In this document: positions 1 to 6,983 of the stretch, in pieces
How positions within the stretch are numbered: position 1 is the stretch's first letter
How the letters are laid out: each line of letters begins with the position of its first letter
Origin: JAUWCW01 sp030609125 [NCBI: Candidatus Rokuibacteriota bacterium]
GTDB lineage: Bacteria; JAUVQV01
DNA: 6,983 bases
Assembly (NCBI GenBank): GCA_030609125.1
Contig: JAUWCW010000101.1
Location: 1 to 6,983, forward strand
Reading direction: 5' to 3'
Translations under genes and position numbers: made by a program
Notes under the pieces: model-generated
The model's database searches: none
What the model was told of the DNA's origin: nothing
What the model saw: the letters and a program-made list of their open reading frames with translations, nothing else

Positions 1-134
1 CGGTAGGCGTGTGCGTGGGGGATGGTGTAGTCGAATTCGTGCCCGTACGATTCGGCGTAACGGACCAGGTCCAGCCAGTGGCGCCCCCATCGTTCCCCGT
101 AACGCGGGGAAGCGAGCAGGCGATCGACGACGTT
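1..134 (-). other. DUF1549 (PSCyt2)-like coding segment joined in frame to the carboxyltransferase
   Basis: Codons 230-273 of the frame above encode [10 protein letters not shown] followed by [22 protein letters not shown], then [16 protein letters not shown] recognise this as the conserved core of DUF1549 (PSCyt2), found in large secreted PSD1/planctomycete cytochrome c-type proteins of Planctomycetes and Verrucomicrobia. Carboxyltransferases at this point normally continue with AFENDVDALL-type sequence and then the C-domain. The switch lies somewhere within about 132-146, where both families can share an AFEN-like tetrapeptide, so the breakpoint cannot be set to the base. The reading frame is preserved. 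An assembly chimera is favoured, with a true genomic fusion as the alternative. The recognition is from memory of the family motif, without a search. Confidence 0.8.
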
Positions 135-821
135 TTCGAAGGCCCGGTCGGCGACACCCGACCTGGTGGAGTGGGTGTGAGAGCCCCCGAGCTCCTCGCG
201 GCTCACCTCCTCGTGCGTGACGGTCTTGACTACCTCGGGGCCGGTGACGAACATGTAGGAGGTGTCCCGGACCATGAAAATGAAGTCCGTCATCGCCGGG
301 GAGTAGACGGCGCCGCCGGCGCAGGGACCCATGATCATGGAAACCTGGGGGATGACCCCCGAGGCGAGGACGTTGCGCTGAAAGACTTCGGCGTAGCCGC
401 CCAGGGAGGCAACCCCTTCCTGGATCCGGGCGCCCCCGGAATCATTGATGCAGATCAGCGGGACACCGGCCCGGATCGCCTGGTCCATGACCTTGCAGAT
501 CTTCTCGGCGTGGGCCTCGGAGAGGGAGCCGCCGAAGACGGTGAAGTCCTGGCTGAAAACGAAAACCATCCGCCCGTTGACGGTTCCGTAGCCGGTGACG
601 ACGCCGTCGCCGGGGATGGTCTGCCTGTCCATCCCGAAGTCGGTGCAGCGGTGCTCGACGAACATGTCCCACTCTTCGAAACTCTCCTCGTCGAGGAGCT
701 GCTCTATCCGCTCCCGGGCGGTGAGCTTTCCCTTGGCGTGCTGGGTGTCGACCCTCTTCCGCCCGCCGCCGAGCCGGGCGGCCTGACGCTTCTCTTCCAG
801 CTGCTTGATGATCTTATCCAT
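1..821 (-). CDS. pccB: Acyl-CoA (propionyl/methylmalonyl-CoA) carboxylase carboxyltransferase subunit, partial and chimeric at its 3' end
   Basis: This is the beta (carboxyltransferase) subunit of a biotin-dependent propionyl-CoA carboxylase or methylmalonyl-CoA decarboxylase/transcarboxylase; it moves CO2 between carboxybiotin and propionyl-CoA. I read 273 codons from ATG 821 with no stop before the window edge. Residues 1-230 match the family's N-domain: [15 protein letters not shown] (30-44), [20 protein letters not shown] (89-108), the acyl-CoA oxyanion segment [10 protein letters not shown] (128-137), [17 protein letters not shown] (164-180) and [20 protein letters not shown] (209-228). 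The family is about 510-520 residues long, so the C-domain with the second (biotin-side) oxyanion hole is absent. From about residue 231 the sequence is no longer carboxyltransferase but DUF1549-like (separate entry). The start overlaps the mutase stop by 8 bases and has a good ribosome site. The exact substrate direction cannot be told from this fragment. Confidence 0.88.
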
Positions 822-2973
822 CGTGCCCTCCCTCATGACGGCACTCGCGGATCAGGCCCAGAATCTCACCGGCCGACACGGAGACATTCGTCCCCGGACC
901 GTAGAAGGCGGCGACCCCCTTCTTTTTCAGGACCTCCCGGTCTCCGGCGGGGACGATGCCGCCGCAGACGACGAGGACGTCGCGGGACTCCTGCCGCCGC
1001 AGGGCCTCGATGAGGCGCGGTACCAGCACGCCGTGGCCCGCGGCCATAGAGGAGACGCCGACCACGTGAACGTCGTTCTCCACGGCCTGCCGGGCGGCCT
1101 CTTCAGGTTCCTGGAAGAGGGGACCGATGTCAACGTCGAAGCCGAGGTCGGCAAAGGCGGTGGCGATGACCTTGGCTCCACGGTCGTGACCGTCCTGACC
1201 GAGCTTGACCACCAGCAGGCGGGGACGTCTCCCCTCGGCGGCGGCGAAGGCCTCGACGTCCCGGCGGACCCTGGTGAAGTCCTCGGAGCCTTCCAGGGCC
1301 GGCCCGTAGACTCCGGATACGGAACGTATTTGCGCCTGGTAGCGGGAGAAGACCTTCTCCAGGGCCGCCGTGATCTCACCGACGGTGGCCCTGCGCCGCG
1401 CCGCCTCCACGGCTCCCTCGAGGAGCGGGCCGCCGCTTTCGGCGGCGGCGGTGAGGGCCTGGAGGGAGCGGCGGCAGGCGTCCTCGTCGCGGTCCCGGCG
1501 CAGAACCTCGAGCCTCCTGAGCTGGGACCGGCGCACCGAGTCGGTGTCGATGTCGAGAATGTCCACCTCTTCCTCCTGCTCGGGGCGGTGCCGGTTGACG
1601 CCGACGATCACCTCGCGGCCGGCGTCCACGCGGGACTGCCGGCCGGCGGCGGCCTCTTCGATCAGCAGCTTGGGAATGCCCGATTCCACCGCTTTCGTCA
1701 TGCCTCCCATCTCCTCCACGCGGTCAATGAGCTTTCGCGCCTCCCCGGTCAGGCTTGCGGTGAGGCTCTCCACGTAGTACGAGCCGCCGAGGGGGTCCAC
1801 CACGCTGCTCAGCCCGGTCTCCTCGCGGAGAACGAGCTGGGTGTTGCGGGCGATGCGCGCCGCGAACTCGCCCGGCAGGGAGAGGGCTTCGTCGAAGGAG
1901 TTGGTGTGCAGTGACTGGGTGCCGCCGAGAACGGCTGCCATGGCCTCCACGGTCGTCCGGATGATGTTGTTGTACGGGTCGTGGCTCGTCAGGCTCACGC
2001 CGGAAGTCTGGCAGTGGGTTCGGAGCATGAGGGAGCGGGGGTCGCCGGGGGAGAAGTGCTCCTTCATGAGCGCCGCCCAGAGAGAGCGGGCGGCCCGGAG
2101 CTTGGCCACTTCCAGAAAGAAGTTCATCCCCACGGCAAAGAAGAAGGAGAGCCGGGGAGCGAAATCGTCGACGGCCAGCCCCGTCCCGATGGCGGTGCGG
2201 ACGTACTCGATGCCGTTGGCGAGGGTGAAGGCGAGCTCCTGCACGCACGTCGCCCCCGCTTCCTGCATGTGGTACCCGGAGATGGATATCGGGTTGAAGG
2301 CCGGCATGAGGCGGGAAGTGTAGCGGATGATGTCCGAGACGATGCGCATCGACGGGCCCGGCGGGTAGATGTAGGTGTTGCGGACCATGAACTCCTTGAG
2401 TATGTCGTTCTGCAGGGTGCCCCTGAGCCGGGCGGGATCGGCTCCCTGCTCCAGGGCGGCGGCGATGTACATCCCCATGATCGGAAGAACCGCTCCGTTC
2501 ATGGTCATCGATACGGACATCTTCTCCAGGGGGATGCCATCGAAGAGGATCTTCATGTCCTCGATGCTGTCGACGGCCACGCCGGCCTTGCCGACGTCGC
2601 CGGCGACGCGCGGATGGTCCGAGTCGTAGCCCCGGTGCGTGGGAAGGTCGAAGGCCACGGAGAGTCCGGTCTGGCCGGCCGCCAGGTTCTTCCGGAAGAA
2701 GGCGTTGGTTTCCTCCGCCGTCGAAAAGCCCGCGTACTGCCGCACCGTCCAGGGCCGCCCGGCATACATGGTTGCCCGGGGGCCCCGAAGATAAGGGGGG
2801 AAGCCGGGCAGCGTTTCGTGATCCTCGAGCTCCTGCAGGTCCGCGGCGGTGTAGAGGGGCCTGGTGTCTATCCCGTCGGTAGCGTCTCCGTACAGGGTCT
2901 CCAGGGGCCGGCCGCGCAGTTCCTTCTCGGCCAGGTCTCTCCAGTCCTCGAGGCTCTTTTTCTCGAAATCCAT
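814..2973 (-). CDS. Methylmalonyl-CoA mutase, single-chain with C-terminal B12-binding domain
   Basis: Adenosylcobalamin-dependent isomerase that interconverts (R)-methylmalonyl-CoA and succinyl-CoA in the cytoplasm. At 719 residues it has the length of the homodimeric type (E. coli ScpA, mitochondrial MUT), not a split large/small pair. Residues about 20-560 are the TIM-barrel domain: [16 protein letters not shown] (69-84, with Tyr80 matching the substrate-contacting Tyr89 of the Propionibacterium enzyme), [14 protein letters not shown] (108-121), [10 protein letters not shown] (232-241, with Tyr234-His235 matching Tyr243-His244) and RTHCQTSG (318-325). Residues about 583-710 form the cobalamin domain with the base-off/His-on motif DGHDRG (594-599, His596 as lower cobalt ligand), SSMAAGH (641-647) and GGIVPAGD (671-678). 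All key residues are present, so it looks functional. ATG 2973 follows the prpE stop by 3 bases and lacks a clear Shine-Dalgarno, so translation probably relies on coupling with prpE. The 3' end overlaps the carboxyltransferase start by 8 bases. The isobutyryl- and ethylmalonyl-CoA mutase relatives are less likely given the pathway partners. Confidence 0.96.
826..834 (-). promoter_or_regulatory. Ribosome binding site of the carboxyltransferase gene
   Basis: On the minus strand GAGGGAGGG stands 4 bases before the ATG at 821, inside the last codons of the mutase gene. It supports this start. With the 8-base stop/start overlap (ATGGATAA), it also suggests the two genes are translationally coupled. 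Confidence 0.7.
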
Positions 2974-2976
2974 GTG

Positions 2977-4872
2977 TCAGGACGGAGGGTAGCCCACTCC
3001 CTTGAGCGCCGTCTCGATCTCGTCGAGGATGGCGGGGTCGTCGATCGTGGGCGGCACGGTGTACTCCTTGCCGTCGGCGATCTTTCTCATGACGGCGCGG
3101 AGGATCTTGCCCGAACGGGTCTTCGGGAGGCGGTCGACGACCATGGCCGTCTTGAACGACGCCACCGGCCCGATCTCGTCGCGCACCATCTGGATCACTT
3201 CCTTGACGATCTCTCCGTGGTCTTTTTCGACGCCGGCCTTGAGGACGCAGAAACCGACGGGGACCTGCCCCTTCAGGGAGTCGCTCACTCCCATGACGGC
3301 GCATTCGGCCACGTCGGGATGGTTGGCGAGGACCTCCTCCATGGCGCCCGTTGAAAGGCGGTGCCCGGCGGTGTTGATGATGTCGTCCGTCCGCGACATG
3401 ACGTGAACGTAGCCGTCCTCGTCGATGACGCCGGCGTCGAAGGTCTGGTAGCAGCCGGGATAGCGGCTCAGATAGGCCTCGAAAAAGCGCTCCTTTGCCC
3501 GCCAGAGCGTCGGGAAGGTGCCCGGCGGCAGGGGAAGCTTTATGACCAGCGCGCCGAGCTCTCCCGCCTTCAGCTCACTGCCGTCCTCGCCGAGGACGCG
3601 CACGTCCATGCCGGGGACGGGGCGGGTGGGCGAGCCTTTTTTCACCGGCAGGTGCTCGATGCCGAGACAGTTGGCGCAGATGGCCCATCCCGTTTCGGTC
3701 TGCCACCAGTGGTCGATGACGGGGACGCCGAGGATCTGCTCCGCCCAGGTGAGGGTGTCCGGGTCGCAGCGCTCGCCGGCGAGGAAAAGGGCCTTGAAGG
3801 AGGAGAGATCATATTTCTCGAGGTGCGTCCCCTCCGGGTCCTCCTTCTTGATCGCCCTGAAGGCGGTGGGTGCGGTGAAGAGGGTGCCCACTTTGTGCTG
3901 AGAAATGACACGCCAGAAAGCCCCCGGGTCGGGTGTGCCGACGGGTTTTCCCTCGTAGAGGATCGTGGTGTTCCCGTTGAAGAGGGGACCGTAGACGATG
4001 TAGGAGTGGCCGACCACCCAGCCGATGTCGGAGGCGGCCCAGTAAACCTCTCCCGGCCGGGAGTTGTAGATGTTCTTCATCGACCACTTCAGGGCGACGA
4101 TGTGACCTCCGTTGTCCCGGACCACGCCCTTCGGCTGCCCGGTGGTTCCCGAGGTGTAGAGAATGTAGAGGGGGTCGGTGGCGGCCACCGGGACACACTC
4201 GTGCGGCTCGGCGGATCCCATGGCCTCGTTCCAGTCCACGTCCCTGCCCCCGACCATCGTCGCTTCCTCCTGCGGTCTCTGGACGATGACGCATGAATCC
4301 GGCTTGTGCCCGGCGAGTTCGATGGCCTTGTCGAGAAGGGGCTTGTAGGGGATGATCCGGGTGACCTCGATGCCGCAGGACGCGGAGACGACGACCTTCG
4401 GTGTGGCGTCGTCGATCCGGACCGCCAGCTCGTGGGCGGCGAAGCCGCCGAAAACGACCGAGTGCACCGCCCCCAGCCTGGCACAGGCCAGCATCGCTAT
4501 CACCGCCTCGGAAATCATCGGCATGTAGATGACGACGCGATCGCCCTTCGCGACCCCCCGGGCCGCCAGCACCCCGGCGAAGCGGGCTGTCAGGTCAAGG
4601 AGCTCCCGGTAGGTGAAGGACTTGACGGTATCGGTTACGGGACTGTCGTAGATGAGGGCCGTCTGGTCCGCCCGCCCGTGCTCCACGTGGTAGTCGAGGG
4701 CGTTGTAGCAGGTGTTGCAGACGGCGCCTGTGAACCACCGGTAAAAGGGGGCGTCGCTGTCATCCAGGACCTTGTCCCATCTCTGGAACCAGCTCACGTC
4801 TTCGGCGGCTTCGGCCCAGAAGGCCTGGGGATCGTTGAGAGACTTGCTGTAAACTTCATCGAACCGGCTCAT
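2977..4872 (-). CDS. prpE: Propionyl-CoA synthetase (AMP-forming, PrpE/ACSS3-like)
   Basis: Activates propionate with ATP and CoA to propionyl-CoA, AMP and PPi, in two steps through a propionyl-adenylate, in the cytoplasm. The 631 residues match the usual PrpE length. An ACAS-type N-terminus (about 4-60) is followed by the P-loop YTSGTTGQPKG (239-249), DHWWQTETGW (387-396), the hinge/adenylate segment SRTDDIINTAGHRLSTG (493-509) and PKTRSGKILR (583-592). Lys589 in the last is the catalytic lysine, which in relatives is also the target of Pat-type acetylation. The residue aligned with the acetate-restricting Val386 of Salmonella Acs (GSVGEP) is Ala365 here (FLAGER), which fits a larger acyl pocket. 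The start is set by a good ribosome site 8 bases upstream and by the full N-terminal domain. It is the first gene of the operon, 3 bases from the mutase. Acetate may be a side substrate. Confidence 0.93.
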   Translation of the reverse strand: MSRFDEVYSKSLNDPQAFWAEAAEDVSWFQRWDKVLDDSDAPFYRWFTGAVCNTCYNALDYHVEHGRADQTALIYDSPVTDTVKSFTYRELLDLTARFAGVLAARGVAKGDRVVIYMPMISEAVIAMLACARLGAVHSVVFGGFAAHELAVRIDDATPKVVVSASCGIEVTRIIPYKPLLDKAIELAGHKPDSCVIVQRPQEEATMVGGRDVDWNEAMGSAEPHECVPVAATDPLYILYTSGTTGQPKGVVRDNGGHIVALKWSMKNIYNSRPGEVYWAASDIGWVVGHSYIVYGPLFNGNTTILYEGKPVGTPDPGAFWRVISQHKVGTLFTAPTAFRAIKKEDPEGTHLEKYDLSSFKALFLAGERCDPDTLTWAEQILGVPVIDHWWQTETGWAICANCLGIEHLPVKKGSPTRPVPGMDVRVLGEDGSELKAGELGALVIKLPLPPGTFPTLWRAKERFFEAYLSRYPGCYQTFDAGVIDEDGYVHVMSRTDDIINTAGHRLSTGAMEEVLANHPDVAECAVMGVSDSLKGQVPVGFCVLKAGVEKDHGEIVKEVIQMVRDEIGPVASFKTAMVVDRLPKTRSGKILRAVMRKIADGKEYTVPPTIDDPAILDEIETALKGVGYPPS

Positions 4873-5039: not shown

Positions 5040-5068
5040 TTGACAGCCGCCCGAGGTGCGCCTAGATT
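5040..5068 (+). promoter_or_regulatory. Sigma-70-like promoter candidate pointing into the hydrolase remnant
   Basis: TTGACA (5040-5045) is followed after 17 bases by TAGATT (5063-5068, 4 of 6 matches to TATAAT). It diverges from the prpE promoter candidate about 65 bases away. The implied transcript start, near 5075, falls inside the remnant frame when that frame is read from GTG 5056. Either the remnant's true start lies further downstream or this promoter match is accidental. Confidence 0.35.
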
Positions 5069-5334
5069 TACGAGTGGATGCCGGTAGCGGCAGGGGAAAA
5101 GGGGTTTTTCAGTCTTTCCAAGGAGCGCCGGATGCGGCTCTTTTTCTTCACGGCATCACCACCTACTCCTTTCTCTGGAAGGACGTGGTGTCTCTCCTGA
5201 AGGACCACCTCACCTTCTTCGCCCCCGACCTGATGGGGTGTGGAGATTCTTCCAAGCCGGCCGGGGCGAACTACTCCCTCTCCGCCCAGGCCGATATGAT
5301 CCTGGGCTTCATCGGCGCCACCGTCGCCGCCTGA
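5056..5334 (+). pseudogene. Alpha/beta hydrolase, N-terminal remnant lacking the catalytic core
   Basis: A 92-codon frame that encodes only the first third of an alpha/beta-fold hydrolase of the haloalkane dehalogenase/epoxide hydrolase-like kind. Visible are ALFLHGITTYSFLW (28-41), with the HG of the oxyanion region, and APDLMGCGDSSKP (56-68), followed by a helix YSLSAQADMILGFIGA (73-88). Full members run to about 270-300 residues. Here the frame ends within a few codons, just before the nucleophile-elbow strand (GxSxG or GxDxG), so the nucleophile, acid and histidine are all missing. The tail stops 7 bases before the end of the convergent regulator gene. The start is unclear: an in-frame TGA at 5041 bounds it, GTG 5056 has no obvious ribosome site, and GTG 5074 is another choice. 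The plus-strand orientation is opposite to the rest of the window. A decayed gene is most likely; a short functional protein is unlikely. Confidence 0.7.
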
Positions 5335-5341
5335 GGGCCCT

Positions 5342-6983
5342 CTACTTTTCAAACTTCTTCGAGTGGATATTGAGCTTCTGCAGGAGCCTGTGGAAGGAGC
5401 GGCGGGGAAGGCCGGCGAGCCGGGCCGCTTCCGTCACGTTCCCCTTAGTCTGAACGAGGTACTGGCGGATCAGGTTCCTCTCCACATTCTCCACGTAGTC
5501 CAGGCGTTTTTCTCGGAAGCTCTGGCTGGTGACGGTGTCGGGCGAGTCCTTCATCTTGGGCACCTGCACCCGGTTGGGCAGGTGGCTGACGAGGATCTCG
5601 TTCCCCGGAGCAAGGACCACGGCCCTCTCGATGACGTTTTCCAGCTCCCGGACGTTCCCGGGCCAGTGATAGTCGGTCAGCATCTGGAAGGCTTCCGGGT
5701 GAAGGCCCTGGACGTGCTTGTTGATCTTGCCGCAGGCCTTCTTGAGGAAGTGCTCTATGAGAGGGGGAATGTCCTCCTTGTGTTCCCTCAACGGAGGCAT
5801 CCTTATGACGAGAGTTGTCAGGCGATAGTAGAGGTCCTCCCTGAAGCGCCCCTCCTCGATTGCCTTTTCCAGGTTGTGGTTCGTGGCGGCGATGAGCCGG
5901 ACGTCGGCGCGTTTGACTTTCGCCTCGCCGACCCGTTTGAATTCCCCCGTCTCGATGACCCGCAGGAGCTTCTTCTGCAGCTCCGGGGAGATCTCGCCGA
6001 TCTCGTCGAGAAAGAGCGTGCTCTGGTGGGCCTCTTCGAAGAGGCCCTTCTTGGCGGCCGTGGCGCCGGTGAAGGCGCCCCTGACGTGGCCGAAGAGCTC
6101 GCTCTCGAGGAGGGTTTCGGCCAGGGCGGTGCAGTTGATGCTGATCAGGGGACGGTCGGCGCGTTTGCTGTGCCGGTGTATGGCCTTGGCGATCAGCTCC
6201 TTGCCGGTTCCGCTCTCTCCCCGGATGAGGACGTTCGTCGGTGCGGGAGCGACCTTCTTCGCCAGGTCGAGGATGTGCTGCATCTGCTTTGATCTGCCGA
6301 CGACGAAGTCGAAATCGCGGCTGATGTCAACTTCCTGTCTGAGAAGGTTGACCCGCTGCCGGAGTTCCAGGTTGTGCTGGTTGAGGTGGCGGATGGAGTA
6401 GGGGAAGCAGACCTCGGGCGCCGCGAGCCCCTGGAAGATGGCCACCGCCTTCTCCCGGCAGGTCCTGAACCCGCAGGCGCCGCAGTTGAGCTCATCCTCC
6501 CTGTTGAAGATCTCAACCGAGTGCAGGATCTTCGTCACGTCCGCCCGGGAAGGGACGGGGAAGGAGACCTTTTTGTTGCTGTAGGTGCGGGAAAGATCAA
6601 GGGACTCCTCCTCCCTCGACGGCCTCAGCCGCGGGAGGCCGGTCCGGTCTTCGCCCAGCATCTTCAGGATCATTTCCCGCTTCATGTAGGGGCTCAGCCG
6701 CGAATCGAGGGCCGGTCCGTCCATACAGCCCCGGCAATAGTGCAGGGCCGCGAGCCGGGGCACCAGGCGCCCGCCGGCGATGTCCCTGACGACGTCGAGG
6801 CTGTCATGTCTTCCCGCCACCTCGATGATGTCCCTGCCGAAGCGGCTCCGTGACTTGCCGAAGAGCTGCTCCATGCCCTCGCCGATGGTGTAGAAGAGGC
6901 TCACGGGCTTGAAGGAGATCTTCCCCCGGGCGCCGGATTTTTCACGGTGGGGCTCCACCTTGCCGAGAGAGAAGAGCTCCTTG
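5342..6983 (-). CDS. Sigma-54-dependent transcriptional regulator with an N-terminal [FeFe]-hydrogenase-like/4Fe-4S sensor region, 5' partial
   Basis: An enhancer-binding activator of sigma-54 RNA polymerase with an Fe-S sensory half. The frame is open to the right edge (KELFSLGK precedes GTG 6958), so the true start is outside the window. The visible part is 546 codons; numbering below counts GTG 6958 as residue 1. About 1-110 resembles the C-terminal part of the Fe-hydrogenase large-subunit domain, ending in ALHYCRGCMDGPAL (71-84), which holds a CxxC in place of the enzyme's cluster loop. A four-cysteine Fe-S domain follows: NCGACGFRTC (158-167) plus Cys184. Next come a short coiled-coil-like linker (about 190-212) and the AAA+ domain: Walker A GESGTGKE (247-254), GAFTGA sigma-54 contact loop (294-299), Walker B LFLDEIGE (315-322), arginine-finger region FREDLYYRL (372-380) and WPGNVRELENVIERA (432-446). 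A Fis-type helix-turn-helix (about 505-530) closes it. No receiver domain is seen. Its targets are unknown; it lies on the same strand upstream of the prpE operon. Confidence 0.9.
   Translation of the reverse strand, partial: KELFSLGKVEPHREKSGARGKISFKPVSLFYTIGEGMEQLFGKSRSRFGRDIIEVAGRHDSLDVVRDIAGGRLVPRLAALHYCRGCMDGPALDSRLSPYMKREMILKMLGEDRTGLPRLRPSREEESLDLSRTYSNKKVSFPVPSRADVTKILHSVEIFNREDELNCGACGFRTCREKAVAIFQGLAAPEVCFPYSIRHLNQHNLELRQRVNLLRQEVDISRDFDFVVGRSKQMQHILDLAKKVAPAPTNVLIRGESGTGKELIAKAIHRHSKRADRPLISINCTALAETLLESELFGHVRGAFTGATAAKKGLFEEAHQSTLFLDEIGEISPELQKKLLRVIETGEFKRVGEAKVKRADVRLIAATNHNLEKAIEEGRFREDLYYRLTTLVIRMPPLREHKEDIPPLIEHFLKKACGKINKHVQGLHPEAFQMLTDYHWPGNVRELENVIERAVVLAPGNEILVSHLPNRVQVPKMKDSPDTVTSQSFREKRLDYVENVERNLIRQYLVQTKGNVTEAARLAGLPRRSFHRLLQKLNIHSKKFEK

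Follow-up and report, generated by a model that had tools for sequence, protein, structure and literature searches.

Over its first 235 residues, the open reading frame at the start of the window (the whole stretch of DNA analysed, 6,983 bases, which is one entire contig, C300 of genome G000) has the sequence of a PccB-type carboxyltransferase; its final 43 residues read instead as PSCyt2/DUF1549, a planctomycete-type cytochrome-associated domain. This apparent PccB-PSCyt2 fusion is almost certainly not a real gene. We regard it, with a probability of about 95%, as an artefact in which a foreign tip of ~131 bases has been placed on the end of a draft contig, a chimera from assembly or library preparation.

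The hybrid open frame and its setting

The genome carrying the window is a 2.32 Mb draft of 376 contigs, with a listed completeness of 92.38% and contamination of 2.15%. The sample of its phylum comprises two genomes, this one and G001, a member of the same order. The features of the contig are as follows.

3-836, minus strand: hybrid open frame of 278 residues, without a stop and open at the contig end
132-836, minus strand: 5' part of a pccB-type gene, residues 1-235 (PF01039, phmmer, blastp)
132-143, minus strand: look-alike stretch, AFEN codons (column counts, 65 PccB and 29 PSCyt2 loci)
1-131, minus strand: putative foreign tip from the interior of a PSCyt2/DUF1549 gene, encoding residues 236-278 of the frame (PF07583, breakpoint model)
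814-2973, minus strand: methylmalonyl-CoA mutase with B12 domain (Pfam, NCBIfam)
2977-4872, minus strand: acyl-CoA ligase (Pfam, NCBIfam)
5342-6982, minus strand: sigma-54 activator with Fe-S domain, frame open at the other contig end (Pfam)

The main genes thus all lie on the minus strand in the order sigma-54 activator, acyl-CoA ligase, methylmalonyl-CoA mutase and pccB (Pfam). In NCBIfam the mutase, at 1168.5, clears its cut-off of 876. For the ligase the highest score is against propionate-CoA ligase, at 761.7 below the cut-off of 955, and it passes the cut-off of the acetate-CoA ligase subfamily (662.5 against 657). The methylmalonyl-CoA route is a pathway for using propionate, and the remainder of the contig is an ordinary propionate/methylmalonyl-CoA gene cluster. 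Residues 165-194 of the activator match PF04060, a putative Fe-S cluster domain, and lie ahead of its AAA+ domain. Between the ligase and the activator, a plus-strand frame of 92 residues (5056-5334) matches the alpha/beta hydrolase family PF00561 at model positions 4-60 of 245 only, and is possibly a gene remnant.

The first-pass annotation had described an in-frame switch from a carboxyltransferase to DUF1549, and Pfam confirms it, with both domains above their cut-offs. Carboxyl_trans (PF01039) occupies residues 32-235 (E 4.1e-84, 283.4 bits) and covers model positions 2-205, or 204 of 493. The closest solved relatives of the frame are propionyl-CoA carboxylase beta chains (3n6r_B, E 5.1e-118, phmmer), and solved PccB chains match residues 6-244, placing the N half of the carboxyltransferase in the frame; its C half is absent from the hybrid frame after residue 235 in the Pfam search, the contig end cutting the frame. 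PSCyt2 (PF07583) follows at residues 230-278 (E 9.1e-15, 55.6 bits, cut-off 29.8), covering model positions 53-101 of 209, where the contig end again cuts the match. The final 48 codons alone (3-146) reach 58.3 bits against the same cut-off and contain the conserved core, and the PSCyt2 part has no gene start of its own. The family switch in frame is far above chance. The frame extends to residue 278, five beyond the end at 273 given earlier. The expectation that automatic annotation would overlook the join was partly borne out: Pfam finds both domains, and the highest NCBIfam match, mmdA, stays at 361 bits, below its cut-off of 998.8.

Position of the switch

In a breakpoint model built on two profiles, the position immediately before residue 236 (plus-strand base 131) took 85% of the weight, and the positions before residues 231 to 238 together took more than 99%. 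The switch, between residues 235 and 236 (plus-strand bases 132/131), is therefore sharp, and it falls inside a stretch that resembles both families. The interval 1-146 proposed for it by the first-pass annotation holds as an outer bound; the foreign part is better given as 1-131, with the look-alike stretch at 132-143.

The families were then compared column by column, using those fetched loci that passed the reading pattern, 65 of 99 for the carboxyltransferase and 29 of 30 for PSCyt2; loci with an unmatched pattern or too short a flank were left out, and one of the 65 PccB loci, which looks misaligned to judge from its residues, was retained. At the join PccB loci mostly read AFEN, versus mostly A[YF]E[KR] in PSCyt2. 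A232 is present in 62/65 PccB and 29/29 PSCyt2 loci and E234 in 65/65 and 21/29, in agreement with the earlier suggestion that an AFEN-like stretch is common to both families here. The next positions separate them: N235 is PccB-like (62/65 PccB versus 2/29 PSCyt2 loci), V236 is PSCyt2-like (0/65 versus 26/29), as is R239 (0/65 versus 28/29). An A, a V and two L, and often an E, stand in register in both families, so that the join falls in a region of likeness between the two genes, which favours an artefact.

Residues 236-278 were also considered as a divergent carboxyltransferase C-domain, a candidate ruled out by columns 242-252. At 10 of these 11 positions the frame matches none of the 65 PccB loci, the exception being R245 (64/65); the same 10 positions match at least 23 of the 29 PSCyt2 loci, and R245 matches 2/29.

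When each fetched pccB is paired with each fetched PSCyt2 gene, exact in-register DNA identity at the join extends over 10 bases at most. This is shorter than usual assembly k-mers and counts against an artefact by the assembler route; it points to a short or error-bridged overlap, or to a chimeric read, as possible routes.

Donor, missing half and relatives

The join sits 131 bases from the end of the contig, and the confinement of the foreign part to these terminal bases argues for an artefact. The length of the foreign portion is about that of one short read; as the read length is not known, this is suggestive only.

In a search of the whole assembly with PF07583, the tip gave the sole PSCyt2 match to pass the cut-off, and PSD1 (PF07587), with which PSCyt2 pairs in particular in the same gene, had no match in the window's genome; the genome thus offers no donor, which also favours an artefact. 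A sub-threshold PSCyt2 match on contig C312 (L023, G000:C312:4979-5131; 20.5 bits, cut-off 29.8) lies in a frame containing VLGRSP and LLGRPP pieces and is not like a true PSCyt2. G001 has no PSCyt2 match at E 1e-3. From the lack of another PSCyt2 above cut-off and of PSD1 in the genome, and of any PSCyt2 match in G001, we infer that the two sides of the join differ in origin. The tip matched in 106 of 291 genomes at E up to 1e-3 and in 29 of 84 at E up to 1e-12; its donor gene was not found in the two phyla searched, where the best match has 76% identity across 50 residues, and this counts against an artefact. So does composition, by which the two parts are not told apart: GC is 0.64-0.70 in windows touching the join, and third-position GC, 0.90 over 231 codons versus 0.79 over 43 codons, carries no mark of foreign origin.

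Comparison with the orthologous locus of a relative, as the first-pass annotation had proposed, was carried out on G001 and showed a normal pccB-pccA pair. There a full-length PccB frame of 545 codons is followed by pccA, which begins 153 bases past its stop. Searches of the window's genome with the C-terminal half of G001 PccB and with PF01039 did not recover the second half of PccB. The sole match to the G001 C-terminal half, on contig C73, also matches the second half of PF01039; it was rejected as the missing half, being a complete accA (NCBIfam PRK05724, 445 bits, cut-off 357).

On contig C274 of the same genome, a frame with biotin-carboxylase and biotin-carrier parts starts at the very contig edge and lacks ~85 residues; its identity to G001 PccA is 66% over 576 aa. 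In G001 the distance from the join point to the equivalent place in pccA is 1,251 bases. An ordinary pccB-pccA pair broken at an assembly gap of ~1.25 kb would explain both broken ends, those of C300 and C274, and C274 is probably the true continuation of C300. The intact pccB-pccA pair and lack of a PSCyt2 match in G001 argue for an artefact, as does the absence of a PccB second half together with a pccA-like gene cut at the C274 edge. One other biotin carboxylase above cut-off, on C234, is 50% identical to G001 PccA; its existence counts against an artefact, though it is whole and lies beside a biotin-carrier gene.

The join is also absent from the other loci examined, a further argument for an artefact. 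Across 41 genomes, among the matches listed, only the window starts before residue 229 and runs past 256, and the exact joined 26-mer occurs in one of the 41, the window's own. The PSCyt2 motif occurs in 0 of the 99 other carboxyltransferase loci (all 99 being used for this count) and in 29 of 30 PSCyt2 loci. Among the 80 stretches, out of 590 related ones, that are most similar to the carboxyltransferase part, a selection and not a census, the top segments stop at or before residue 246. Two loci, L013 (G029:C43) and L021 (G017:C4), have PccB-like matches in unusually long frames of 1377 and 890 residues, perhaps multi-domain carboxylases or an upstream frame open by chance.

Origin of the join

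Also counted against an artefact is that the frame stays open across the join, as it would in a real fusion. By our reasoning about a third of random joins would preserve the frame, and the in-register look-alike stretch makes an open frame likelier. A real, recent rearrangement, in which recombination at microhomology put a PSCyt2 part behind the first half of pccB and left the gene broken or fused, would account for the open frame across a clean junction and for the failure to find the second half of pccB in the assembly. We consider it very unlikely, since the genome holds neither a PSCyt2 donor above cut-off nor PSD1, the join is so close to the contig end, the intact G001 order and the edge-cut pccA-like gene explain the missing half as a gap, and the join was seen in no other locus examined. 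Less credible still, to the point of being nearly negligible, is a working protein that unites half of a cytosolic carboxyltransferase with a cytochrome-associated domain. Only the open frame speaks for it; both sides are fragments (204/493 of the carboxyltransferase model and 49/209 of PSCyt2, the latter truncated where the contig stops), the fusion is absent from the other loci examined, and one study, on Verrucomicrobia draft genomes, reports PSD domains in most of the genes that have PSCyt1-3 (PMC5615132).

The preferred reading remains a chimeric contig tip. An ordinary pccB, probably followed by pccA, would sit at the broken end of a draft contig, and a PSCyt2/DUF1549 gene in a different organism, probably one present in the same sample, would have supplied the final ~131 bases. 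Attachment would have occurred at the short look-alike stretch of the two genes, during library preparation or assembly, by an assembler walk through a shared or error-bridged k-mer or by way of a chimeric read. The first-pass annotation had likewise favoured an assembly chimera at a contig end, and that view gains support from the window being a whole contig, the lack of another PSCyt2 above the cut-off, the pccB-pccA pair of G001 and the cut pccA-like gene.

The biological importance of the fusion is probably nil. Its practical consequence is a false domain at the end of one contig in a species-level draft genome: surveys of domains would log PSCyt2 in a phylum whose one other compared genome, G001, has no match, and would also log a non-existent PccB fusion. 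Dropping the terminal ~131 bases removes both.

Compared with known systems, the carboxyltransferase part resembles PccB (PF01039) in that residues 6-246 align with G001 PccB at 78.4% identity over 241 aa (blastp), and differs in that the contig lacks the second half, which the assembly searches did not find either. The tip resembles PSCyt2/DUF1549 (PF07583) in having the family's conserved core at residues 236-278, and differs in spanning 49 of 209 model positions, having no start of its own and lying in a genome without a PSD1 match. According to a review, chimeric metagenome contigs can arise when sequencing errors, or k-mers common to different species and above all to closely related ones, link assembly graphs (PMC7299287). 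The present case differs in that the exact common run is only 10 bases with the fetched relatives. It resembles such contigs in that the sequence of two genomes would stand in one contig, here joined at a contig end where the two genes look alike.
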